Part shown: piece after piece, positions 625-33,695 of the stretch
Layout of the letters: every line of letters starts with the position of its first letter
How positions within the stretch are numbered: position 1 is the first letter of the stretch
Assembly: GCA_019454045.1 (NCBI GenBank)
Contig: SKCR01033649.1
Coordinates: forward strand, 186,001 to 250,000
Direction: 5' to 3'
Length of the DNA stretch: 64,000 bases
DNA from: Zanthoxylum bungeanum
Taxonomy: Eukaryota > Streptophyta > Magnoliopsida > Sapindales > Rutaceae
The notes under the pieces: generated by a model
What the model was told of the DNA's origin: nothing
The model's input: only the letters and a program-made list of their open reading frames with translations
Database searches by the model: none
Position numbers and translations under genes: made by a program

Positions 625-1109
625 TGATGAGTGGTAATTATATCACTATTTCCCACTCATTTAACCTAATATTTTGTATAGTTTCTCGAGTTTTATGAAC
701 GTTTTGATGTGTTTTTATTTATTTTGCAGATAAAAATAATATTGGGACTTAATGGAATTAACTCGGGGCTAAAAGGATGAAATACGGAGGAAAAATGGTC
801 AAAAACAAAATTTTCTATACGCGTCAAGAAGTGTGGTCCTAAATTCCAGTTTTGCGCATGATTCGTATTTTGGCCATAACTTTTTCATCCGATATCTGAT
901 TGAGCTGATTCAAGTTTTAGCTTAAAGAATACCCAAAGATCTACAACTTTGAAGATTTAAATATTTTCGAATTCTGAAGTGTGGAAGGCCGAAATTGATG
1001 AACAATCCAGTATATTTTGAGTAATTACTAAAGTCATTTTCAAAATATAAAATAAAATTAATAAAAATAAAAATAAAAATTGTCAAACTTCCATCAAACA
1101 TGTTGCATG

Positions 1110-1205
1110 TTTGATGCCATATTTGGTGCCATGTTTGGTGTCATATTTGATGCCATGTTTGGTGGAGCAATCGGTGGAGCAATTGGTGGAGAAATTGGTG
1201 GAAGC
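1110..1205 (+). repeat. 12-bp tandem repeat in LTR U3 (8 units)
   Basis: Eight 12-base units of the type TTTGGTGCCATG grade into ATTGGTGGAGAA and end just upstream of the TATA box. The same array has 10 units in LTR 2 (5435-5554) and 7 in LTR 3 (11305-11388). Because the unit is divisible by three, it makes spurious ORFs with a short repeating peptide; I do not call those genes. Confidence 0.9.
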
Positions 1206-1218
1206 CTTTAGGTTTTTC

Positions 1219-1226
1219 TATAAATA
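1219..1226 (+). promoter_or_regulatory. TATA box of LTR 1
   Basis: TATAAATA lies just after the U3 minisatellite, the expected place for an LTR promoter; transcription would start about 30 bases downstream, near 1250. The same position reads CTACAAATA in LTR 2 (about 5567) and LTR 3 (about 11400), so only this LTR keeps a canonical box. Confidence 0.7.
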
Positions 1227-1490
1227 CCAAGCCATTTCATTTGTAATTCTGATGCTTTCCTCAGGTTTTTGTAAGAAATTTAAGGATTGCATCTTGTTTT
1301 TATTTATTTTCAGTATTTAATTTATGCATTTTTATTTTCAGTAATAGTAGTAGTTCTTCTTCTTCTTCTCTTTTCTTTTATGTTTAGTAGTTAGATTTCC
1401 GCTGGGGGAAGGGTGAAGCTTTTATTATTTTAATTTAGATTAATCTCCCTTAATTTTAATATGGAAATTATAATTCAAATTAAAAGGATT

Positions 1491-1674
1491 ACTGCATTAA
1501 TGGCTGGTTTTATTTATTTGACATCAAGTAACACCGCCTATATGGCTGGTCTTTAGGTGACAGATAAGTACCGCCTATATGGCTGGTTTATGGACAAATA
1601 ATAATACCACCTTTATGGCTGGTTAGACTTAATTAAAATCTAACTTAATGAGGAATACCGCCTATATGGTTGGT
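1491..1674 (+). repeat. Five hairpin-forming 18-bp motifs in transcribed LTR
   Basis: Five copies of a motif close to ACCGCCTATATGGCTGGT occur at 1491, 1533, 1570, 1606 and 1657, spaced 36-51 bases. Each is an imperfect inverted repeat (ACC.GCC pairing with GGC.GGT around TATAT). The array lies downstream of the TATA box, so it would be in the element RNA. Equivalent arrays are at 5840-6023 and 11674-11858. Function unknown. Confidence 0.85.
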
Positions 1675-2074
1675 TGGTAATATCATTGATAAATTCTATA
1701 TTATAGTAAGGGAGATTACTAATTTATAAATAGTAAAGGTGGATCCCCTAACCCCAACATTTTGTTTTTATTCTAGGGAAGTGATGAAACACAATATCCA
1801 CACTTAATAATTGATATAATTATTTATTGGGTAATTTTTTAGTTTGTTTATTGAGTCTTAAGTTTAATGCTTCTTGTTGTCTGATCACCAATAGGATTGA
1901 TGTGGTAAATCTAAAATGAACTTGGAAAATGGATTTTAGGTTTCAGCCTTAGATTCAATAGCCTACGATCTTCCTTGAGGATAAATAATATTTGCGTCTG
2001 ACCATCGGAAGAGGCTTTTGCATATCATCGTGTTCCAGGTTAGCAAACTAATTTATTACATATATACAAGAGAG

Positions 2075-2683
2075 CATGAAGTTGAACTTCATGTACCAAC
2101 TGCACCAACAACAGAGGATCAAACTTTCAATCCTCAAAATAAAGATCTTGGAGCATGCTTTGCAATGATGTTTGAAGAAGATCTACCTGAACCATCCATT
2201 CCAGTTGTATCAGAGGATGAAGACCTAATGTCAGAAACATCTTTACATCCTCAGGTAGACACTTATGAAGCATGCATTTCACAAATGACAGATGAAGAAC
2301 TAAATGCAGAAATCCTAAAATATATATGTGAAGAAAAGGTGGAGCAAGAAGTAGATCAAATGGAGGAGCAAATGTCTGACCTTAATGAAGATCCAGTGCA
2401 TTCAAGAGAAACATCACTGTTTTGGGGAGTACAAATCAAAGACATCACCCAGAAGCTTGACAAAATGAAACTCCCATTCCAATTCAAGCATCATACGAGA
2501 CCTCATGATTTTCTTTCTTTCTTTTCAGGAACCACTGAAGTGAAAAAGTTTAAGAAGGTGGCACAAGCACTGAATGAGACAAAATTATTTTTACGACCTT
2601 ACCGTTGGAAGAGACCTTTCAAAAGCAACGCTCATGGGATTGTCTATAATCGAACATCCAAGACGACACTGAAACCTCATTGA
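2075..2683 (+). pseudogene. Gag-like ORF, 3' part (copy 1)
   Basis: This is the C-terminal part of the same protein encoded at 6980-8017, joined to LTR sequence by a deletion that removed the start, the zinc-knuckle part and the primer site. The frame is open back to 2018 only because it reads into LTR sequence. At the position where copy 2 has a TGA stop (8015), this copy has TGG and continues for about 90 more codons, ending at 2683. The ancestral protein was therefore longer than the present copy-2 ORF. The sequence is very acidic. No structural domain is recognised here. Confidence 0.6.
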
Positions 2684-3213
2684 CAGATAGATTTCAGTCA
2701 CGTCTGGAAGAAGACAAAAAATTTATCGCTAGTAGGGAGGCAACCCATGTAATTTGTTGTAATTTTTATTTTTATGTTTTGTGTATACATGTTGTAGAGT
2801 TTTCAATTTTGTGTGTTATTTTTGTAGGGAAAGGCACAAACGAAGCATTTAGGGAGGAATGGTGTTTGGCAATCACAAAGATGAGACCTAATTCATTAGT
2901 GGTGGCTGAGTAAGGAATGGATTCTTGAGACGCATCCTAATGGATTTATATACCAAACGAGTGGCGTATTGCGTAAACAATTCTGTTGCCTTAATAATTG
3001 CTTTGATTTGCTTTTCTTTTGTTATTTTCCTTTATTTTCGCCGACAAGATCTATACTTTTTGACTTTAATGATTTATTTTAACGTTCTTCTAATAATTGT
3101 CATTTGGCAGATACTAGTGCAATTATTACTCACCCTTTTTCAGGTTCTATAAATTCAGCCCTATATTTCTTTCTTCAACGCATCCAGATATTCATCCAAA
3201 CAAGAGAGAGAAA
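2684..3213 (+). other. Spacer between gag-like and LOG regions, copy 1
   Basis: No gene. It includes the GGGAGGCAACCCATG block (about 2734) seen in Athila-type elements upstream of env, pyrimidine-rich tracts ending in AG that resemble splice acceptors (TTTTTGTAG near 2827, CCCTTTTTCAG near 3143), and the segment just ahead of the LOG start. The same order occurs at 8280-8850. Confidence 0.55.
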
Positions 3214-3586
3214 ATGGAAGCAACTTCACAGTATTGATTCAAGCGAATTTGTGTTTTCTGTGGATCCAACTCTGGTAATAAACCATATTCATTGAGGCTG
3301 CAAAGGAATTGGGGAGAGTCATAGCAGAACGAAATATGCACCTAGTATATGGCGGTGGCAATCTTGGATTAATGGGAAGCATTTCAAAAACTGTTCAGGA
3401 AGGTGGCGGACATGTTTTGGGAATCATCCAAAAACCTTTGGCGGATGAACAATTATTTGGACCAAAGGATTAACCGACCAAATCCTAGCATTTAAACCAA
3501 AAATCGACCCCATTCTTTCCAAGTTGAACTGGTCAGATATCGATCGTGATAAGAAGCGTAAATTGGACATAGACCTTAATCTGTAA
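3214..3586 (+). pseudogene. LOG-like pseudogene, copy 1
   Basis: Homologous to the LOG ORF at 8851-9564 and in the same element context. It begins with the same ATGGAAGCAAC, but an in-frame TGA occurs within the first ten codons, a small deletion shifts the frame near the glycine-rich start, and about 290 bases in the middle, including the PGGxGTxxE region, are deleted near 3468. The recognisable parts are the YGGGNLGLMG segment and the C-terminal lysine-rich tail. Here the tail ends with a TAA directly after LNL, probably the ancestral stop. Not functional. Confidence 0.85.
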
Positions 3587-4940
3587 TTTTTCGTAGATTT
3601 TCAGCTAACCAGGTACGACCTTCTTAACTCTCCTTCTACTGTTTAAGACAGGACAATGTCTCATTTAGGTTTGGGGGAGGGGAATAATTAATTTGTATCT
3701 TGTTTTTCTTAATTTTAGTCCTAAATTTTTTTTTCGAAAAACACAAAAATTGGAAAATTTTCAAAAATTATAAAAAAATATTTTGCGTTTTTGTGTTTTT
3801 TTTTTATTTTGACTAAAAAAGGTGAAATTGGTGAGGGATAGCTGTGTAAGGAGTTTCAACTCCTGAGACGTTTTTCAAACCCATTTTCGAAACAAGTTAA
3901 TGTTTGTTTATTTCCTTTTGAATTATTTAATTTGTGAATTCTCCATAAAACTGACTAAAATGAATATTCATATGCTCAGTTGGCAGGTATTATCAATATG
4001 CATAGTAATATACAGACATGAGCTGTAATTGAAAAGTTTGTAATATCCAGTGCTCTAGTTTAATTGGAGGAAGCATCTATAAATGACAATGGAGTAAAAA
4101 AAAGAAAAAGAAAAAAAAAGTGAAAAAAATGTCTGAGATCCGAGTCATTAAATCCGTAGGGGTGTTTTAACAACTAGTGCCCTAAAACCAACTGATTTGG
4201 GAGTCACTGGCCCAAAGCTCTCTACATGGATCAAAGATGTTGCCAAATAAATATATAAATATGAAGTCTGAGTAATTAAGTCTGTAGGGGTGTCTTAACA
4301 CCTGGTGCCCTAAAGCCAACTGGTTTGGGAGCCACCGACCCAAAGCTCGCTACATAGACAGAAGATATTGTATATAAACAAAAAATAAAATTAGGAAAAA
4401 AAAGAAAGAAAAAATCCGAAAAATCCGAAAAAATTATTCCATTGCTACAAAAAGTGTGAATTCTGATAAAACTTTAGGACAAAAATATTACTCTCTTATC
4501 AACTACACTTGTGACTGTTGTGGGCAAAAATGAATTGATTAATATTTTGTTAGCTGTGTATATGGAGAATGGTAAATATAATCGGAGAATTTACTTATTC
4601 TGTAGTTTAAAAAGAAAGAAAACAACTACTAAATTGGAGTAGAAGTTTCACCTGATTAGTCACTAACTTCTTTATTTTATTTTCTCTTGTCTTTTTGCTT
4701 TTGTGTGCATTAGTTTTACTTTCTTTTTACTTTTGTAAAATGTTTGTGTATCATTACTGTAAACCCTCACGAGACTATAACTCGTCCACTAGGGACACCT
4801 AGGAGTTTAAAGGTTTGTTGCATATGCTACATGCAACTGTGATCCCTACGAAAATGGTTTAGTTAATTTTATTTTTATTTTTATGTTATTTTATTTTATT
4901 ATTTTGCTCGAGGACTAGCAAAATGTTAGGTTTGGAGGTG
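3587..4940 (+). other. 3' non-coding internal region of gypsy copy 1
   Basis: No gene. It holds a purine-rich tract (AGGTTTGGGGGAGGGGA, about 3667-3683) just after LOG, a short perfect hairpin AGGAGTTTCAACTCCT (3849-3864), A-rich stretches, a tandem duplication (4131-4374), and the PPT-like AGGTTTGGAGGTG (4928-4940) directly before LTR 2. The order is repeated at 9565-10823. Confidence 0.8.
4131..4374 (+). repeat. Tandem duplication, unit about 110-135 bp
   Basis: Two diverged units both begin GTCTGAG and contain the CCCAAAGCTC..CTACAT block; the second starts at 4266. In gypsy copy 2 (about 10045-10260) the start of the second unit is deleted. Confidence 0.75.
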
Positions 4941-6845
4941 TGATGAGTGGTAATTATATCACTATTTCTCACTCATTTAACCTAATATTTTGTATAGTTC
5001 CTCGAGTTTTATGAACGTTTTAATGTGTTTTTGTTTATTTTGCAGATAAAAATAATATTGGGACTTAATGGAATCAACTCAGGGCTAAAACGATGAAATC
5101 CAGAGGAAAAATGGTAAAAAAACAAAATTTTACTATACGCGTCATGAAGTGCAGTCCAAAATTCCAGTTTTCCGCATGATTCGTATTCTGGCCATAACTT
5201 TTTCATCCGATATCTGATTGAGCGGATTCATGTTGTAGATTAAAGGAGACTCAAAGATCTAAAACTTTGAATATTTAAATATTTTCGAATTATGAAGTTT
5301 GAAAGGCCGAAATTGATGAACAATCCAGTATATTTTGTGTAATTACTATAGTCATTTTCAAAATATAAAATAAAATTAATAAAAATAAAAATAAAAATAA
5401 AAATTGTCAAACTTCCACCAAACATGCTTGCATGTTTGATGCCATATTTGGTGCCATATTTGGTGCCATGTTTGATTCCATGTTTGGTGCCATGTTTGGT
5501 GTCATGTTTGGTGGAGCAATCGGTGGAGCAATTGTTGGAGAAATTGGTGGAAGCCTTTAGGTTTTTCTACAAATACCAAGCCATTTCATTTGTAATTCTG
5601 ATGCTTTCCTTAGGTTTTTGTAAGGAAATTAAGAATTACATTTTGTTTGTATTTATTTTCAGTATTTAATTTATGCATTTTTATTTTCAATAATAGTAGT
5701 AGTTCTTATTCTTCTTCTATTTTCTTTTATGTTTAGTAGTTAGATTTCTGCTGGGGGAAGGGTGAAGCTTTTATTATTTTAATTTAGATTAATCTCCCTT
5801 AATTTTAATATGGAAATTATAATTCAAATTAAAAGGATTACCGCCTTAATGGCTGGTTTTATTTATTTGACATAAAGTAACACCGCCTATATGGCTGGTC
5901 TTTAGGTGACAGATAATTACCGCCTATATGGCTGGTTTATGGACAAATAATAATACCGCCTTTATGGCTGGCTGGACTTAATTAAAATCTTACTTAATGA
6001 GGAATACCGCCTATATGGCTAGTTGGTAATATCATTGATAAATTCTATATTATAGTAAGGGAGATTTCTAAATTATAAATAGTAAAGGTGGATCCTCTAA
6101 CCCCAGTATTTTATTTTTATTCTAGGGAAGTGATGAAACAAAATATCCACACTTGATAATTGATTTAATTATTTATTGGGTAATTCTTTAGTTTGTTTAT
6201 TGAGTCTTAAGTTTAATGCTTATTGTTGTCTGATCACCAATAAGATTGATGTGGTAAATTTAAAATGAACTTGGAAAAGGAATTTTAGGTTTCAGCCTTA
6301 GATTCAATAGTCTATGATCTTCCTTGAGGATAGATAACCCTTTAATAGATTTCCTTACAGGATAGGAATATACCTATCGGGCGGGGGTAGCCATAATTGG
6401 AACTTGACCTTAATGAATCCAGGTAATTTGGTTGACATAAACATATGGTTCAATTGGGTTATACTGGATATTTACGTCTGACCAACGGAAGAGGCTTTTG
6501 CATATCATCGTGTTCCAGGTTAGCAAACTAATTTATTATACATATACAAGAGAATCAATTCATCTTTTTAATAATATTGTGTGGAGTCACAACCCTAGAT
6601 CTTTGAGTCTTTTCTTTTATTTTCCTTAGTATTTTCTTTTGAGTCTGTTTTTATTTTAATTAGCAAAATCCACATTCAACCAACCAAAAACAATCAATTA
6701 TCTTCTCCTTCTGATTAGATACCTGTAAATAAATAGTATCAATAATTAATAACAACATTAGGAATTAAGTCCTCGTGAGATCGATATTTTATACTACTTG
6801 AACGATATGTACGCTTGCGTTATATGTGTGTGATTACGTCGGTCA
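4941..6845 (+). repeat. LTR 2 of LOG-gypsy element (complete, 1905 bp)
   Basis: Runs from TGATGAGTGG after a purine-rich tract to CGGTCA before the primer site. It serves as 3' LTR for copy 1 and 5' LTR for copy 2. It contains the 10-unit 12-bp array (5435-5554), the five hairpin motifs (5840-6023) and a degenerate TATA box. Confidence 0.92.
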
Positions 6846-6851
6846 AGTTTT

Positions 6852-6870
6852 TGGCGCCGTTGCCGGGGAC
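6852..6870 (+). promoter_or_regulatory. Primer binding site, tRNA-Asp type
   Basis: TGGCGCCGTTGCCGGGGAC begins six bases after the LTR end. It is complementary to the 3' end of plant cytosolic tRNA-Asp including CCA, the primer type known for Athila-like gypsy elements. It would prime minus-strand DNA synthesis. Confidence 0.85.
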
Positions 6871-6979
6871 TTATTTTTCTTGAGTTATTAATTTTGAAGT
6901 TATCTAATTTACTTGTATCTAATTTTCTTTATTTTTATTTGTAATTTTTATTTCTTTTTTTTTTTCAGGTGGTTGAAAA

Positions 6980-8017
6980 ATGGAACATTATTGGGAGATT
7001 GAGAGATTACGTGCTTTACAAGAAAATTCGCCCCAAATCTGGGAGCAACAATCCGATTTTCTGAGGCCTGTTTTCCAGCCCAACAACTATCACTGGATGT
7101 CAGAACCAATCAATACTACATTTTCTCAACAGAACGAAATGGGGAGATGTGTGATTTGTGATGGTAACCACCCGAGCGATCAATGTATATACCTTCCAAG
7201 GTGGCAGAGCTTTCAAAATCATTCATGGTATAAAGAGCCATCACATTTCACAGAACCACATTTTCCATCTTATCCACCACCCACCTACTATGATCTTCAT
7301 CAAGAACCAGAACCATCAGAGGAAGAACAATTGGTTGACATGCTCAAAGATTGGTTCAAGAAACGAGATGAAAAATTGGATACAATGCTTGAAACATTCC
7401 ATAATCAGCTCGAAAGTATTCAGAGACAATCAGAATCCATACAGAGAATGACAGATCAAATAAGACAATTAACAGAAAACCAGAGCTACATACCTCAAGA
7501 ACCATTACCAGATAACACTGATGAAGCCTTCGAATACCAATCATTTCACAATGACACTTTAGAAGAGGAGGAGGGTGTACAGTATCAACAACCAGAGGTA
7601 TTAGTTCAGGAGCCCAAACTAGCGAAGTCTCTATTTGACTTTTATTATTCGGAATCTGACGAGGATGAAGCTGAACTTCATGTACCAACTGCACCAACAA
7701 CAAAGGATCAAACTTTCGATCCTCAAAATGAAGATCTTGGAGCATGCTTTGCAATGATGTTTGAAGAAGATCTACCTGAACTATCCATTCCAGTTGTATC
7801 AGAGGATGAAGACCTAATGTCAGAAACATCTTTACATCATCAGGTAGACACTTATGAAGCACGCATTTCACAGATGACAGATGAAGAACTAAATGCAGAA
7901 ATCCTAAAATATATATGTGAAGAAAAGGTGGAGCAAGAAGTAGAGCAAATGGAGGAGCAAATGTCTGACCTTATTGAAGATCCAGTGCATTCAATAGAAA
8001 CATCACTGTTTTCGTGA
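6980..8017 (+). CDS. Reduced gag-like protein of LOG-gypsy element
   Basis: 345 codons, the first long ORF after the primer site. A strong pyrimidine tract ending in CAG (about 6953-6968) sits just before the ATG and could be a splice acceptor. Residues 57-69 form a zinc-knuckle-like motif (C-x2-C-x3-H-x4-C, one residue shorter than the canonical spacing). Residues 70-105 are rich in aromatic residues and proline, about 115-170 are Gln/Glu-rich and likely coiled coil, and the C-terminal half is strongly acidic. I see no typical capsid core and no protease. The stop at 8015 replaces a Trp codon present in copy 1, so the ORF is C-terminally shortened. Whether it packages RNA is not known. Confidence 0.65.
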   Translation: MEHYWEIERLRALQENSPQIWEQQSDFLRPVFQPNNYHWMSEPINTTFSQQNEMGRCVICDGNHPSDQCIYLPRWQSFQNHSWYKEPSHFTEPHFPSYPPPTYYDLHQEPEPSEEEQLVDMLKDWFKKRDEKLDTMLETFHNQLESIQRQSESIQRMTDQIRQLTENQSYIPQEPLPDNTDEAFEYQSFHNDTLEEEEGVQYQQPEVLVQEPKLAKSLFDFYYSESDEDEAELHVPTAPTTKDQTFDPQNEDLGACFAMMFEEDLPELSIPVVSEDEDLMSETSLHHQVDTYEARISQMTDEELNAEILKYICEEKVEQEVEQMEEQMSDLIEDPVHSIETSLFS

Positions 8018-8850
8018 GTACAAATCAAAGACATCACCCAGAAGCTTGACAGAATGGAACTCCCATTCTAAGTCAAGCACCATATGAGACCTTCTGATTT
8101 TCTTTATTTCTTTTCAGGAACCACTGGAGCGAAAAAGTTTAAGAAGGTGGCACAAGCACTGAATGAGACAAAATTCTTTTTGCTACCTTACCGTTAGAAG
8201 AGACCTTTCAAAAGCAACGCTCATGGGATTGTCTGTAATCGGACATCCACGACGACACTGAAACCTCCTTGACAGATAGATTTCAGTCACGTCTGGCTGA
8301 AAATGAAAAATTTAGCACTAGCAGGGAGGCAACCCATGCAATTTATTGTAATTTTTATTTTTATGTTTTGTGTATACATGTTGTATAGTTTTTAATTTTG
8401 TGTGTTATTTTTGTAGGGAAAGGCACAAACGGAGCATTTAAGGAGGAATGGTGTTTGATAATCACAAAGATGAGACCTAATTCATTATTGGTGGCTGAGT
8501 AAGGATTGGATTCTTGAGACGCATCCTAATGGATTTATATACCAAACGAGTGGCATATTACGTAAACAATTCTGTTGCCTTAATAATTGATTTGATTTGC
8601 TTTTCTTTTGTTATTTTCCTTTATTTTCGCCGACAATATCTATACTTTTTGACTTTCACGATTTATTTTAACGTTCTTCTAATAATTGTCATTTGGCAGA
8701 TACTAGTACAATTATTACTCACCCTTTTTTAGGTTCTATAATGGCAGATACTAGTACAATTATTACTCACCCTTTTTTAGGTTCTATAAATTCAGCCCTA
8801 CATTTCTCTCTTCAACGCATCCAGATATTCATCCAAATAAGAGAGAGAAA
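8018..8850 (+). other. Post-gag spacer and LOG leader, copy 2
   Basis: No intact gene. The first part is the decayed end of the gag-like frame with new stops. It carries the GGGAGGCAACCCATG block (about 8324-8338) and several pyrimidine tracts ending in AG (near 8117, 8416, 8699 and 8732). A roughly 48-bp segment just before LOG is tandemly duplicated (8694-8789), which creates an ATG at 8741. Confidence 0.6.
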
Positions 8851-9564
8851 ATGGAAGCAACTTCACAGCAGCGATTTAAGCAAGTTTGTGTTTTCTGTGG
8901 ATCCAACTCTGGTAATAAACTAGAATTCATTGAGGCTGAAAAGGAATTGGGGAGAACCATAGCAGAACGAAATATGCACCTAGTATATGGCGGTGGCAAT
9001 CTTGGATTAATGGTAAGCATTTCAAAAGTTGTTCAGGAAGGTGGCAGACATGTTTTGGGAATCATCCCAAAACCTTTGGCGGATGAGCAATTATTTGGAC
9101 CAACGAATGGAGACGAACGCATCGTATCAGGTATGTCTGAACAACTTCTTGAAATGGTCAATACTGTTGATGCATTCATTGCTTTAACAGGTGGGCTCGG
9201 AACATTTGAAGAAATATTCACAGTGGCATCATGGGCGCACTTGAACATTTATCGGAAGCCCATTGGATTACTCAACATTGATCATTTTTTCGATTTTCTG
9301 TTTGTATTTCTTACGGAAGCCAAAAGACATGAGTTCGTCACAAAGTCAGTACAAGATATTTTCCTGACTGCGACAAAGGCCGAAGAATTAATCAACCAAA
9401 TCCTAGCCTTTGAACCCAAAATAGACCCCATTCTTTCCAAGTTGAACTGGTCAGATATCGATCGTGATAAGAAGCGTAAATTGGACATAGATCTTAATCT
9501 GCAATTTTTCGTAGATTTTCAACTAACCAGGTACGACCTTCTTAACTCCCCTTCTACTGTTTAA
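8851..9564 (+). CDS. LOG-family protein (cytokinin-activating enzyme family) inside gypsy element
   Basis: 237 codons, uninterrupted. The LOG family hydrolyses cytokinin riboside 5'-monophosphates to the active free base plus ribose 5-phosphate. Visible family motifs are VCVFCGS (12-18), YGGGNLGLM (46-54), GGRHVLGIIP (64-73), DAFIAL (107-112), TGGLGTFEE (113-121), SWAHLNIYRKPIGLLN (127-142) and the tail DKKRKLD (206-212). Deviations: the P of PGGxGTxxE is Thr113, the Gly after YGGGNLGLM is Val55, and the conserved Arg before the motif reads Gln98, so catalysis is doubtful. There are no introns, unlike host LOG genes, which suggests capture from mRNA. The stop is displaced: copy 1 stops after LNL, while here CAA reads through for about 20 more residues. 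Confidence 0.88.
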   Translation: MEATSQQRFKQVCVFCGSNSGNKLEFIEAEKELGRTIAERNMHLVYGGGNLGLMVSISKVVQEGGRHVLGIIPKPLADEQLFGPTNGDERIVSGMSEQLLEMVNTVDAFIALTGGLGTFEEIFTVASWAHLNIYRKPIGLLNIDHFFDFLFVFLTEAKRHEFVTKSVQDIFLTATKAEELINQILAFEPKIDPILSKLNWSDIDRDKKRKLDIDLNLQFFVDFQLTRYDLLNSPSTV

Positions 9565-10823
9565 GACATTGTGGACAATGTCTCATTTAGGTTTGGGGGA
9601 GGGGAATAGTTAATTTGTATATTGTTTTTCTTAATTTTAGTCCTAAATGTTTTTCGAAAAACACAAAAAAATTGAAAAATTTTCAAAAATTAAAAAAAAA
9701 ATATTTTGTGTTTTTTTTTGTGTTTTTTTTTTTTGACTAAAAAATGTGAAATTGCTGAGGGATAGCTGTGTAAGGAGTTTCCACTCCTGAGACGTATTTC
9801 AAACCATTTTCGAAACAAGTTAATTTTTGTTTATTTCCTTTTGAATGATTTAATTTGTGAATTCTCCATAAAACTGACTGAAATGAATCTTTATATGCTC
9901 AATTGGTAGGTATTATCAATATGCATAGTAACATACGGACATGAGCTGTAATTGAAAAGTTTATAATATTCAGTGCTCTAGTTTAATTGGAGGAAACATC
10001 TATAAATGGCAATGGTGTAAAAAAAAGAAAAAAAATTGAAAAAAAATGTATGAGATCTGAGTCATTAAGTCCATAATGGTGTTTTAACACCTAGTGCCCT
10101 AAAACCAAGTGGTTTGAGAGTTACTGGCCCAAAGCTCGCTACATGGATCAAAGGTGTTGCCAAATAAATATATAAATATGAATTCTGAGTAATTAAAGCC
10201 AACTGGTTTGGGAGCCAGCGACCCAAAGCTCGCTACATAGACAGAAGATATTGTATATAAATAAAAAATAAAATCAGGAAAAAAAAGAAAGAAAAAATCA
10301 GAAAAATCCGAAAAAATTATTCCATTGCTACAAAAAGGTGTGAATTCTGTTAAAACTTTAGGACAAAAATATTACTCTCTTATCAACTACACTTTTGACT
10401 GTTGTGGGCAAAAATGAATTGATTAATATTTTGTTAGCTGTGTATATGGAGAATGATAAATATAATCGGAGAATTTACTTATTCGGTAGTTTAAAAAGAA
10501 AGAAAACAACTACTAACTTGGAGTAGAAGTTTCACCTGATTAGTCACTAACTTCTTTATTCTATTTTCTCTTGCCTTTTTGCTTTTGTGTGCATTAGTTT
10601 TACTTTTTTTTTTTTACTTTTGTAAAATGTTTGTGGGTATCATTGCTGTAAACCCTCACGAGACTATAACTCGGCCACTAGGGACACCTAGGGGTTTAAA
10701 GGCTTGTTGCATATGCTAAATACAACCGTGATCCCTACGAAAGCGGTTTAGTTAATTTTATTTTTATGTTATTTTATTTTATTGTTTTGCTCGAGGACTA
10801 GCAAAATATTAGGTTTGGGGGTG
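9565..10823 (+). other. 3' non-coding internal region of gypsy copy 2, with PPT
   Basis: No gene. It repeats the layout of 3587-4940: an internal purine tract AGGTTTGGGGGAGGGGA (9589-9605), the hairpin around 9773-9787, a partly deleted tandem duplication, and the terminal polypurine tract AGGTTTGGGGGTG (10811-10823) directly before the LTR start, which would prime plus-strand DNA synthesis. Confidence 0.82.
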
Positions 10824-12678
10824 TGATGAGTGGTAATTATATCATTATTTCTCACTCATTTAACCTAATATTTTGTATAGTTTCTCGGGTTTTATGAACG
10901 TTTTGATGTGTTTTTATTTATTTTGCAGATAAAAATAATATTGGGACTTAATGGAATCAACTCGGGGCTAAAACGATGAAATCCGGAGGAAAAATGGTCA
11001 AAAACAAAATTTTACTATACACGTCAAGAAGTGCAATCCTAAATTCCAATTTTGCGCATGATTCGTATTTTAGCCATACCTTTTTCATCCGATATTCGAT
11101 TGAGCTGATTCAAGTTGCAGATTAAAGAAGACTCAAATATCTACAACTCTGAAGATTTAAATATTTTCGAATTCGGAAGTTTGGAAGGATGAAATGGATG
11201 AACAATCCAGTATATTTTGAGTAATTACTATAGTCATTTTCAAAATATAAAATAAAATTAATAAAAATAAAAATTGTCAAACTTCCACCAAACATGCTTG
11301 CATGTTTGATGCCATGTTTGGTGCCATGTTTGATGCCATGTTTGGTAGAGCAATCGGTGGAGCAATTGGTGGAGAAATTGGTGGAAGCCTTTAGGTTTTT
11401 CTACAAATACCAAGCCATTTCATTTGTAATTCTGATGCTTTCCTTAGGTTTTTGTAAGGAATTTATGGATTGCATTTTGTTTGTATTTATTTTCAGTATT
11501 TAATTTATGCATTTTTATTTTCAATAATAGTAGTAGTTCTTATTCTTCTTCTCTTTTCTTTTATGTTTAGTAGTTAGATTTCCGCTGGGGGGAAGGGTGA
11601 AGCTTTTATTATTTTAATTTAGATTAATCTCCCTTAATTTTAATATGGAAATTATAATTCAAATTAAAAGGATTACCGCCTTAATGGCTGGTTTTATCTA
11701 TTTGACATAAAGTAACAACGCCTATATGTCTGGTCTTTAGGTGACAGATAATTACCGCCTATATGGCTGGTTTATGGACAAATAATAACACCGCTTTTAT
11801 GATTGGTTGGACTTAATTAAAATCTGACTTAATGAGGAATACCGCCTATATGGCTGGTTGGTAATATCATTGATAAATTCTATATTATAGTAAGAGAGAT
11901 TTCTAAATTATAAATAGTAAAGGTGGATCCCCTAACCCCCAACATTTTATTTTTATTCTAGGGAAGTGATGAAACACAATATCCACAGTTAATAATTGAT
12001 TTAATTATTTATTGGGTAATTCTTTAGTTTTTTTATTGAGTCTTAAGTTTAATGCTTCTTGTTGTCTGATTACCAATAGGATTGATGTGGTAAATCTAAA
12101 ATGAACTTGGAAAAGGGATTTTAGATTTCAGCCTTAAATTCAATAGCCTACGATCTTTCTTGAGGATAGATAACCCTTTAATAGATTTCCTTACAGGATA
12201 GGAATATAGCTGTCGGGCGGGGGTAGCCATAATTGGAACTTGACCTTAATGAATCCAGCTAATTTGGTTGATATAGACATATGGTTCAATTGGGTTATAC
12301 TGGATATTTGCATCTGACCATCGGAAGAGGCTTTCTCATATCATCGTGTTCCAGGTTAGCAAACTAATTTATTACACATATACAAGAGAATCAATTCATC
12401 TTTTTAATAATATTGTGTGGAGTCACAACCCTAGATCTTTGAGTATTTTCTTTTATTTTCCTTCGTATTTTCTTTTGATTATGTTTTTATTTTAATTAGG
12501 AAAATCCACATTCAACCAACCAAAAAAATCAATTCTCTTCTCCCTCTGATTAGATACCTGTAAATAAATAGTATCAATAATTAATAACAATAGTAGGAAT
12601 TAAGTCCTCGTGGGATCGATATTTTATACTACTTGAACGATACGTGCGCTTGCTTTATACGTGTGTGATTATGCCGGT
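10824..12678 (+). repeat. LTR 3 of LOG-gypsy element (complete, 1855 bp)
   Basis: From TGATGAGTGG after the PPT to CCGGTCA before the right target duplication. It has the 7-unit 12-bp array (11305-11388) and five hairpin motifs (11674-11858). The ORF at 11294-11503 is a by-product of the 12-bp repeat. Confidence 0.93.
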
Positions 12679-12683
12679 CAATG
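12679..12683. repeat. 5-bp target site duplication ATGGT, right copy
   Basis: Partner of 620-624; the copia LTR sequence continues from 12684 (TGCAACACATT, compare TGCAACTCATT in the intact LTR near 20466). Confidence 0.92.
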
Positions 12684-13352
12684 GTTGCAACACATTAGAG
12701 TACCAGTTCTGTATCCCTGCATGATCATCATCTCCATATGCCTGAAGTGATACTTCCATCTTGACATCACACCCAACACACTACGATTCTCAATAAACCC
12801 AGAAAAGGCGTACATAGAACCTGTTAAAGTCCCGGATGACCAAAACTAAAGCGTAATAATTGTTGCATGTATTAGCGATGCAAGTCTCAGCTTAAGACCA
12901 TATACACCTACCCTGAATCGGATTCCCATAGACACATAGTCATACTACCAATGAGATTCCGAGGGGTCTATCCGGAGCGAAGCTGTTTCCGTACCATCGA
13001 TAAACACAACCTCATATCACACTTGCATAAGCATCCAATACTTAAATATATGAGAACTATGCCGTTATGCTCCCACAACGCGCACAAGTGTAATACTAGT
13101 CTATTCCGTATTATCGATGTCCAATCTCGATAATACTACGACTAGAGATGTTTAATGATTAAACTTTAGTGGATTGATATTGTCTCATATCTTATAATCC
13201 TGAACTAATCATAAGGACTTTTATCATTTTATATTTAAGTAATCCAATTACAAAATGATAAAATAGTAATTTCCATAATCACATAGTTAATTTGTACAAA
13301 AACCATAATGTCTTTTACAAATAGTGATGCTATGGGTCATAATTGTCTAACA
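12684..13352 (-). mobile_element. Copia A 3' LTR, second part
   Basis: Continues the LTR interrupted at 624 and matches about 20466-21131. It ends on the plus strand with GTCTAACA, i.e. TGTTAGAC at the minus-strand LTR start. The adjoining ATCTCCCACTT (13353 on) is, read on the minus strand, the polypurine tract AAGTGGGAGAT. Confidence 0.92.
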
Positions 13353-32279: not shown

Positions 32280-32823
32280 GATCTCAGATGTTGTTTTTTT
32301 TGCTCTCCATCACTTTTTGAGATGCTTCCTCCAATTAAACTACAGCACTGAATATTACAAACTTTTCAATTACAGCTTATGTATGTATGTTACTATGTAT
32401 GTTGATAATATCTGTCAGAATGAGCATATGAAGATCCATTTTAGTCAGTTTTATGGAGAATTCACAAATTAAATAATTTAAAATGAAATAAACAAAAATT
32501 AACTTGTTTTGATAAAGGTTGAGATACGTCTCAGGAGTGGAAACTCCTTACTCGGCTATCACTTACACCAATTTCACCTTATTAGTCAAAAATAAAAACA
32601 TAAAAACATGAAATATTTTTGTAATTTTTGAAAATTTTTCAATTTTTTTTGTATTTTTCTTTCGAAAAATTTTGACTAAAAATATAATAAAAATAACCCA
32701 AAATAAACAAGATATTAATCAACTATTCCCTCCCCCAAACATAAATGAGACATTGTCCCCAATGTCTTAAACAGTAGAAGAAGAGTTTAGAAGATCATAC
32801 CTGGTTAGCTGAAATTCAGAAAA

Positions 32824-33480
32824 CTAAAGGTTAAGATCCAGATTTATCTTATGCTTCTTACCACGATCGTCCTCGGACAATTTTATCTTGGATATGATTG
32901 GGTCAATTTGTGGTTCAAAGGCTAAGATTTGGTGAATTAGATCTGGGGCAGTTCTGGAAGTAAAGATGAGTTCTTTAATAGGTTTTGACACGAACCCATT
33001 TCTCCGGGCATCATCAAGAAACACACAAAGAAAATCATAAAATCCCTCAACGTTAAACAGCCCAATCGGTTTCTGATGTATGTTCAAGTTCGCCCAAGAT
33101 AGAACTATAAAAATTTACTCCAATGTGCCCAAGCCTCCTGGCAAAGCAATGAAAGCATCAGCACAGTTAATCATTTCCACCAGTCTCTCGGACATACCTG
33201 GCACGATGAGTTCTTCTCCGTTTGATAGTCAAATAAGATTCGCCTGCGCTAAGGGTTTTGGGATGATCCCCAAGACTGGACTGCCTCCATCCTGTACAGC
33301 TTTTGAAACGATCCCCATGAGTCTAAGATTACCTCCACCGTATACTAAATGCATATTCCTTGCCGCTAAGACTCGACCCAATTCCTGTGCTGCTTCTATG
33401 TATTGTGGCTTAGTACCAACATTAGTACCGCAAAACACACAAATGTTCTCAACTCGTCTTCTTGAAGTGGCTTTAATTTT
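32824..33480 (-). pseudogene. LOG-like pseudogene, copy 3
   Basis: Minus-strand relative of the LOG ORF at 8851. The start codon is lost. The frame carries ICVFCGTN, YGGGNL.LMG, GGSPVLGIIPK, then an in-frame stop and a short disrupted stretch near 33229. It then has the GMSER..EM segment with the conserved Arg, [10 protein letters not shown] with the family Pro intact, and a TAA where the motif's final Glu would be. The last part, SWANLNIHQKPIGLFN and a lysine-rich tail, ends LNL-stop (32824). It keeps signature residues that the open copy at 8851 has changed, but cannot make a full protein. Confidence 0.85.
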
Positions 33481-33654
33481 TTATGTATTTCTTTCTCAAA
33501 CTTGGATGCCTTCAAAGTGCAATAACGAGCTGAATTTATAGTACCGGAAAAAGAGTGAGTAATAATAGCACTAGTATCTTCCAAAGGACACTTGTTAGCT
33601 AAACAACAAAAGAAACTGTGAAAGGTCAAAGAGTCTGGATCTTGTCTGCGAAAA

Positions 33655-33695
33655 TCACGCTAGTGACCCGGGTTCGATCCCCTGCAACGGCGCCA
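33655..33695 (+). other. tRNA-Asp-like 3' half fused to LTR end (extended primer site)
   Basis: The plus strand reads like the 3' half of a plant tRNA-Asp: anticodon-arm 3' side, GTGACCCGGGTTCGATCCCC (variable loop and T-arm) and an acceptor strand ending GCGCCA, with about three differences from the tRNA sequence I know. The first 18-19 bases from the CCA end are the normal primer site; the other about 22 bases have no counterpart in the element at 6852. No 5' tRNA half is present, so it is not a tRNA gene. Confidence 0.8.

Follow-up and report, generated by a model that had tools for sequence, protein, structure and literature searches.

Why should a plant long terminal repeat (LTR) retrotransposon carry a gene of the LOG family, and does this gene still encode a cytokinin-activating enzyme? 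The question is raised by a stretch of 64,000 nucleotides of the Zanthoxylum bungeanum genome (assembly GCA_019454045.1, contig SKCR01033649.1, positions 186,001 to 250,000 of the forward strand; hereafter the window), in which a LOG-like open reading frame (ORF) lies at 8851-9564 (+). The reading favoured here, with a probability of just under one half (about 0.46), is that a captured LOG gave rise to a LOG-fold protein that works via its C-terminal tail, perhaps by binding TOPLESS-type corepressors through a putative EAR repression motif. Because key parts of the active site were lost and a repressor-like tail was gained, the protein may serve the control of host genes rather than hormone making.

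The ORF is genuine, uninterrupted over 237 codons and intron-free. It matched PF03641 in Pfam (E 1.5e-27) and the At2g37210 structure (E 3e-52) and scored 132.6 bits on TIGR00730 against a cut-off of 96.35. In a structure model, the LOG fold is retained, with a C-terminal end of low confidence that is probably disordered. On NF058542, the NCBIfam equivalog for LOG enzymes, the ORF stayed far under the cut-off (85.5 vs 300 bits). A chance frame was rejected as its origin: when the internal region was shuffled 300 times by dinucleotide blocks, no ORF exceeded 162 aa, compared with 237 aa. The LOG proper comprises 217 codons (8851-9501, +) and ends with KKRKLDIDLNL. Codon 9502-9504 is CAA in this copy (copy 2), while TAA and TAG stand there in two further LOG copies of the window, copy 1 and copy 3. 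As the original stop became CAA, the last 20 residues (9502-9564, +; 20 codons, then a stop) are read-through. A native length of 237 aa was rejected, as residue 217 is the last one both in copies 1 and 3 and in the majority of full-length relatives. The first-pass annotation thus recognised a real LOG-family frame, but took it with 20 codons that were added by stop loss.

Relatives were collected in a first protein search (best 120 of 240 relatives), a profile search (best 120 of 7998 matches) and a plant-LOG search for the host set (best 120 of 8000 matches). The closest relatives of the first search matched at up to 87% and were located on short contigs; the profile search contributed proteins of Xanthoceras, Populus proteins under the name LOGL10 and a 705-member Citrus cluster. 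Against viral contigs, the window LOG had no relative, and the family alignment gave 23 distant loci that were not used in the analysis. By sequence pattern, 183 rows were grouped as element-type (80 Populus-like, 44 window-like, 56 Citrus-type and three Orobanche). The plant set of 119 rows consisted of the 116 new rows of the plant-LOG search plus P0071, P0072 and P0075.

According to PMC4979012, a catalytic role has been proposed for R99 and E122 in the LOG of C. glutamicum; the adenine site consists of M96, K100 and E121, and the prenyl site is likely made up of M96, H97, K100, E125 and W129. H97, K100 and E125 were present in 119/119 plant-set and 19/19 bacterial rows. Among the element-type rows, K100 and E125 were found in 0/183 (five Citrus rows were gapped at K100) and H97 in 4/183 (five gapped), in contrast to AtLOG3 (At2g37210) and AtLOG8 (At5g11950). 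R99 or E122 was lost in some element-type rows as well: R99 is Gln in the window ORF and in 16 of the 44 window-like rows, and the Citrus type carries G116D (54/56), G118A (50/56) and E122A (53/56), so that it lacks E122 and two motif glycines. In the window ORF, positions H97, R99, K100 and E125 are occupied by S, Q, L and T, respectively; E122 is kept, and the motif reads TGGLGTFEE, which departs from PGGxGTxxE. The label of a cytokinin-activating gene, given to the ORF in the first-pass annotation, is therefore not supported.

These losses bear on whether the protein could still activate cytokinin as a functional LOG, or act on some other substrate as a related nucleotide phosphoribohydrolase. 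Such an enzyme would raise local cytokinin or alter nucleotide pools, for example to keep cells dividing, with the element copied in meristem or germ line. The predicted fold, purifying selection on the ORF, PGGLGTLEE in 75 of 137 non-Citrus rows with near variants in others, and the retention of R99 and E122 in most Populus-like and many window-like rows speak for such an enzyme. It is nevertheless considered unlikely in view of the missing adenine and prenyl residues, the exchange of R99 in the window subfamily and the damaged motif of the Citrus type.

The other end of the protein was changed in a different way. Most full-length element-type proteins end with tails such as KKRKVNLDLNL, KKLRLDLSLRL, KKYKLDLTLRL or KKRKIDLNLTP, a pattern that reads as a basic K-K-x-K/R patch followed by LxLxL, the consensus of the EAR repression motif. 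The basic patch fits the classical nuclear signal K-K/R-x-K/R. In four groups with 24 proteins, cross-clade identity was 0.86, 0.93 and 0.83 for Leu 213, 215 and 217 and 0.79 and 0.80 for the two tail lysines, compared with 0.06 and 0.14 for the spacers 214 and 216, which is under the linker mean of 0.30. The leucines are fixed and the spacers free, as expected for LxLxL. A strict LxLxL or DLNxxP within the last 16 residues was found in 81 of the 93 new rows of the profile search and in 0/116 new rows of the plant-LOG search. The first search gave the tail pattern in 62 of 120 rows, 44 of them strict (P0060 and P0066 among the 62 are probably false matches); in controls, the strict tail occurred in 0/22 bacterial and plant sequences and in 1.9% of shuffles. 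The tail of the window ORF reads LDIDLNL, and that of copy 3 has LDLNL, a match to LxLxL. Proteins of the P0202 type end after KRRRLD, exactly where LxLxL would start.

EAR motifs are given as LxLxL or DLNx(x)P and are most frequent at the C-terminus (parts of PMC9956375). A C-terminal LxLxL or DLNxxP and a low-confidence, probably disordered end in the model are shared by the element-type proteins and known EAR proteins including the oomycete effector HaRxL21 (PMC7446885, in part). Unlike these, the element tail sits on a retrotransposon-borne LOG-fold scaffold, the window subfamily has Ile in its motif and binding of TOPLESS (TPL) would be by analogy. The tail could instead be a packaging or assembly peptide of a particle accessory protein whose LOG fold binds RNA, nucleotide or gag. 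This is somewhat harder to credit than a working enzyme: the ORF does follow a gag-like ORF in an element without recognised pol and the basic patch adjoins an alternating hydrophobic tail, but three fixed leucines with free spacers are what EAR predicts. P0029, moreover, ends with DLNLTP, which resembles the LDLNLTP carried by ZCT1/2 (PMC9956375, in part), and copy 3 has no adjacent gag, though a later deletion may explain this.

Loss of the site and gain of the tail were compared over 324 rows. A strict EAR and K100 occurred together in none; EAR without K100 was counted 120 times, K100 without EAR 146 times and neither 58 times. Forty rows without K100 and without tail mostly had short, truncated or out-of-frame ends; P0179 and the three Orobanche proteins belong to these forty. 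One change each at K100 and E125 sufficed on the tree, and a single branch can accommodate both these losses and the gain of the tail.

The tree comprised 74 rows, namely, the window ORF and 73 of 329 fetched proteins, with the tail cut off beforehand. One branch was formed by 33 element-type rows (100/96) and was joined by four Xanthoceras rows and P0202 (100/96); this group was sister to 28 plant LOGs (98/96), while P0202 grouped with Xanthoceras with weak support (86/46). A LOG phylogeny of this kind had been proposed in the first-pass annotation, and the element-type sequences do group together, apart from ordinary plant LOGs. The simplest reading is one LOG acquisition or one ancestral donor lineage. 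The placement of the element group outside LOG1/3/8 may be an effect of fast evolution. P0121-P0124 and P0139 from Xanthoceras as well as P0202, P0207 and P0208 are without LxLxL and retain H97, K100 and E125; in the tree, P0122-P0124, P0139 and P0202 adjoin the element group. Xanthoceras and P0202-type proteins are possibly the donor lineage or an early element form.

The rows might also represent an unusual host LOG subfamily that was picked up by elements several times. Annotation pipelines do name some Populus copies LOGL10 and list Xanthoceras copies as hypothetical proteins. The Citrus cluster with its 705 members is difficult to reconcile with a host gene, and one Citrus hybrid alone supplied 46 of the best 120 of 240 relatives (counted by eye). 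In P0001, leader sequence ahead of the start codon agrees with the window element in 18 of 32 residues, and P0004 is similar by eye. As PMC9289625, in the part considered, also puts the domain in LTR consensuses, a host subfamily is the least probable of the explanations weighed. Three Citrus gene models, P0062, P0074 and P0076, had an N-terminal match to PF01623, the carlavirus nucleic-acid-binding protein (E 1.7e-4 to 4.7e-4, two of three over the gathering score), and may be gene-model fusions with endogenous viral sequence.

Selection was estimated from the copies in the window. Copy 1 (3214-3586, +) is internally deleted and disrupted by one frameshift and one in-frame stop; it ends with KKRKLDIDLNL, then TAA. 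Copy 3 (32824-33477, -) is a pseudogene of another subfamily without start codon and with two in-frame stops; its tail is KKHKINLDLNL, then TAG. Both had been announced in the first-pass annotation and are present, copy 3 in a separate element as claimed, but both are decayed, and copy 1 is located in the same composite element as copy 2. Between copies 2 and 3, synonymous divergence (dS) was 1.29 and nonsynonymous divergence (dN) 0.245, which gives a dN/dS of 0.19 (bootstrap 0.11-0.30; 215 codons), a rough figure because a dS of approx. 1.3 is near saturation. The other two frames of the same alignment gave 0.86 and 1.65. For the recent pair of copies 1 and 2, dN/dS was 0.78 (121 codons), as expected for decay after insertion. 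The LOG protein was under purifying selection between the two window lineages, and the value of 0.19 between subfamily-level copies means that LOG was constrained during element replication. With two divergent lineages in the window and relatives that group together, the earlier view of LOG as an old and stable part of the mobile unit held. A functionless passenger, captured from the host and amplified with the element, would account for the pseudogenes in copies 1 and 3 and the lost stop of copy 2; it is very unlikely given dN/dS 0.19 over a dS of approx. 1.3, the largely constant length of 217 residues and a tail conserved across diverged clades. Capture from mRNA is plausible, the LOG frame of the window copies having no intron.

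Beyond the position of the LOG stop, the frame is open in all three copies up to a second stop (9505-9564, 3587-3646 and 32767-32823). This stretch is 19 codons long in copies 1 and 2 and 18 in copy 3 (outside the compared codons, copies 1 and 3 were read by eye), and 14 codons compared between copies 2 and 3 showed six synonymous and two nonsynonymous differences. Read-through of the stop or an RNA signal may lie behind it, but the stretch is too short to tell.

The element that carries copies 1 and 2 is a non-autonomous LTR retrotransposon with LTRs (TG...CA), a 5-bp target site duplication (TSD), a primer binding site (PBS), a polypurine tract (PPT) and an empty site, which bears out the earlier placement of the ORF inside an LTR retrotransposon. 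It forms a composite at 625-12680 with the order LTR-internal-LTR-internal-LTR, the LTRs starting at 625, 4941 and 10824, and it interrupts a Copia element. The TSD ATGGT is found at 620-624, within the Copia element, and again at 12681-12685; another Copia copy in the window is uninterrupted and has a single ATGGT. Self-BLAST delimited the first LTR (625-2043, +; aligned to 1988), which starts with TGATGAGTGG and is damaged in its 3' part, the first internal region (2072-4940, +), which has lost its 5' part and holds a gag-like remnant and LOG copy 1, the middle LTR (4941-6845, +; TGATGAGTGG...CGGTCA) and the 3' LTR (10824-12680, +). The LTRs at 4941-6845 and 10824-12680 are 94.7% identical, with a Kimura two-parameter divergence (K2P) of 0.056; K2P was 0.056-0.060 for LTR pairs and 0.056-0.071 for the internal parts compared. 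As LTRs and internal regions are about equally diverged, the tandem probably formed about the time of element insertion, and the dimer probably arose at or before integration.

The complete internal region (6846-10823) contains a gag-like ORF and the LOG ORF. The PBS, TGGCGCCGTTGCCGGGGA, follows the middle LTR at 6852-6869 (+) and is presumably complementary to tRNA-Asp. The gag-like ORF (6980-8017, +; 345 aa) is named from its position and a C-x2-C-x3-H-x4-C knuckle and had Pfam matches only below the cut-off. A polypurine-tract-like TTAGGTTTGGGGGTG at 10809-10823 (+) abuts the 3' LTR. The LOG ORF had been placed between a gag-like ORF and the PPT; the gag-like ORF is indeed upstream, but the purine run near 9590 was rejected as the true PPT since it is not at the LTR, and the LTR-abutting tract lies approx. 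1.2 kb further on. Of 27 internal ORFs of 45 aa or more, 11 were scanned against Pfam, the longest included, and none of these had a pol domain; the assignment to gypsy is thus unsupported from the element itself. The lineage is probably Athila-like. This label derives from the literature and the PBS type, which is among those of non-chromoviruses according to the parts of PMC6317226 used here, as no reverse transcriptase or integrase of Athila pol was found in the ORFs scanned.

Copy 3 sits in a separate and more diverged element (75% identity over 1286 aligned bases) and has no gag beside it. The PBS of this third element is extended to about 32 or more bases instead of 18 (region 33640-33695, minus strand): GGTTCGATCC at 33664-33695 (-) is complementary to the 3' end (T-loop included) of a tRNA that we take to be tRNA-Asp, and an Rfam scan of it gave no match. 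It looks as if reverse transcription had passed the usual stop in the tRNA primer. Shortly after this PBS, the sequence picks up again at the position corresponding to 8623, and the gag region is missing at the junction; the internal deletion was possibly born during reverse transcription and left a LOG-only element.

How could such a protein be of use to its element? In the mechanism proposed, an LTR retrotransposon lineage, probably Athila-like, would have taken up a plant LOG long ago and retained it as an extra ORF. The LOG fold, as modelled, was kept, but residues that contact the adenine and prenyl parts of cytokinin nucleotides were lost, and a probably disordered tail with a K-K-x-K/R patch and LxLxL was gained. 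The element context in the window, the selection, the grouping, the lost residues, the conserved tail and the predicted fold are observations of this analysis; nuclear location, dimer, TOPLESS binding and a benefit to the element are inferences. The product would most likely be a nuclear (pseudo)enzyme scaffold, and a LOG dimer would display two EAR-type peptides that may bind TOPLESS/TOPLESS-related corepressors. Host genes that restrain the element might then be repressed to its benefit, the corepressor might be diverted, or element particles or integration might be brought to repressed chromatin. In its most specific form, the element lineage would have turned a captured hormone enzyme into a pseudoenzyme that hijacks TOPLESS via a C-terminal EAR, as its own transcription- or silencing-modulating effector, conserved in several plant orders; this form is held more tentatively than a tail-dependent function as such. 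A precedent is HaRxL21, whose C-terminal LxLxL binds TPL and whose function depends on the motif (PMC7446885, in part).

Several points weigh against a tail-dependent corepressor binder. In the same source, as far as considered, ten further LxLxL effectors were tested and not one of them bound TPL, which is why confidence stays just under one half, and changes of Leu to Phe, Ala or Ile abolished TPL binding according to a supplement legend. Among the relatives, those nearest to the window ORF end with LDIDLN-R or -L, so the window subfamily is not strictly EAR, and the three Orobanche proteins and P0179 have no tail. The window copy itself is decaying. R99 was kept in 74/80 Populus-like and 28/44 window-like rows and PGGxGTxxE mostly kept, so some hydrolase activity may remain; the prenyl site is the same in AtLOG3 and different in M. 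marinum LOG (PMC4979012, in part), and the changes may therefore mean another substrate. The count of 0/183 was made after five Xanthoceras and three P0202-type rows that retain the site had been set apart, an exclusion chosen after tree and tails were seen, and P0202 was counted as element-type in the tree. H97 and the tail need three changes each on the tree, and a link between tail and site is suggested rather than proven because it represents a single, unreplicated event. All 34 element-labelled rows including P0202 formed one branch in only 6% of 200 bootstrap trees. The element context was observed directly in this window; elsewhere it is drawn from one paper, cluster sizes and homology.

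The family is not the first of its sort, since LOG-bearing LTR retrotransposons are already in print, and the statement of the first-pass annotation that none had been described does not stand. Steinbauerova et al. 2011 (Genetica) reportedly found two Athila-like elements with similarity to LOGL4. In line with that study, which it cites, PMC9289625 (2022), in the part considered, lists a YgdH (LOG) domain for consensus sequences of LTR retrotransposons from Citrus sinensis and C. clementina and, with one filter disabled, from Populus trichocarpa. Here, too, a plant LTR retrotransposon carries the LOG domain as an additional ORF, and in the tree the window ORF falls together with the Citrus and Populus proteins. 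Unlike these elements, that of the window is without recognised pol, and the tail, the active-site loss and the selection are additions of this analysis to the part of PMC9289625 considered. The same source describes gypsy elements of Phalaenopsis with an AlkB-type m6A demethylase ORF, likewise a captured enzyme gene that was fixed as an extra ORF and kept through diversification; that enzyme is active in vitro, whereas the active site is changed in the LOG element. Word look-ups gave no mention of LOGL4 or cytokinin in PMC7264820 and PMC6317226 and none of cytokinin or LOG in PMC11728184. Within a limited literature coverage, no paper was found to link an EAR motif with LOG or with an ORF of a retrotransposon, and the tail may be described elsewhere. 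With its selection, its grouping apart from LOGs, its EAR-like tail and the loss of the adenine/prenyl site, the protein appears new.

Many plant retrotransposons have extra ORFs, most of which contain no known domain (PMC9289625, in part). As a changed enzyme site and a gained, named interaction motif are joined in one protein group, a testable function can be assigned in this case. If the proposed reading is true, a transposon shares a corepressor-binding trick with some pathogen effectors, and the names LOG and LOGL10 in plant genome annotations may in some cases stand for retrotransposon proteins that lack cytokinin activity.
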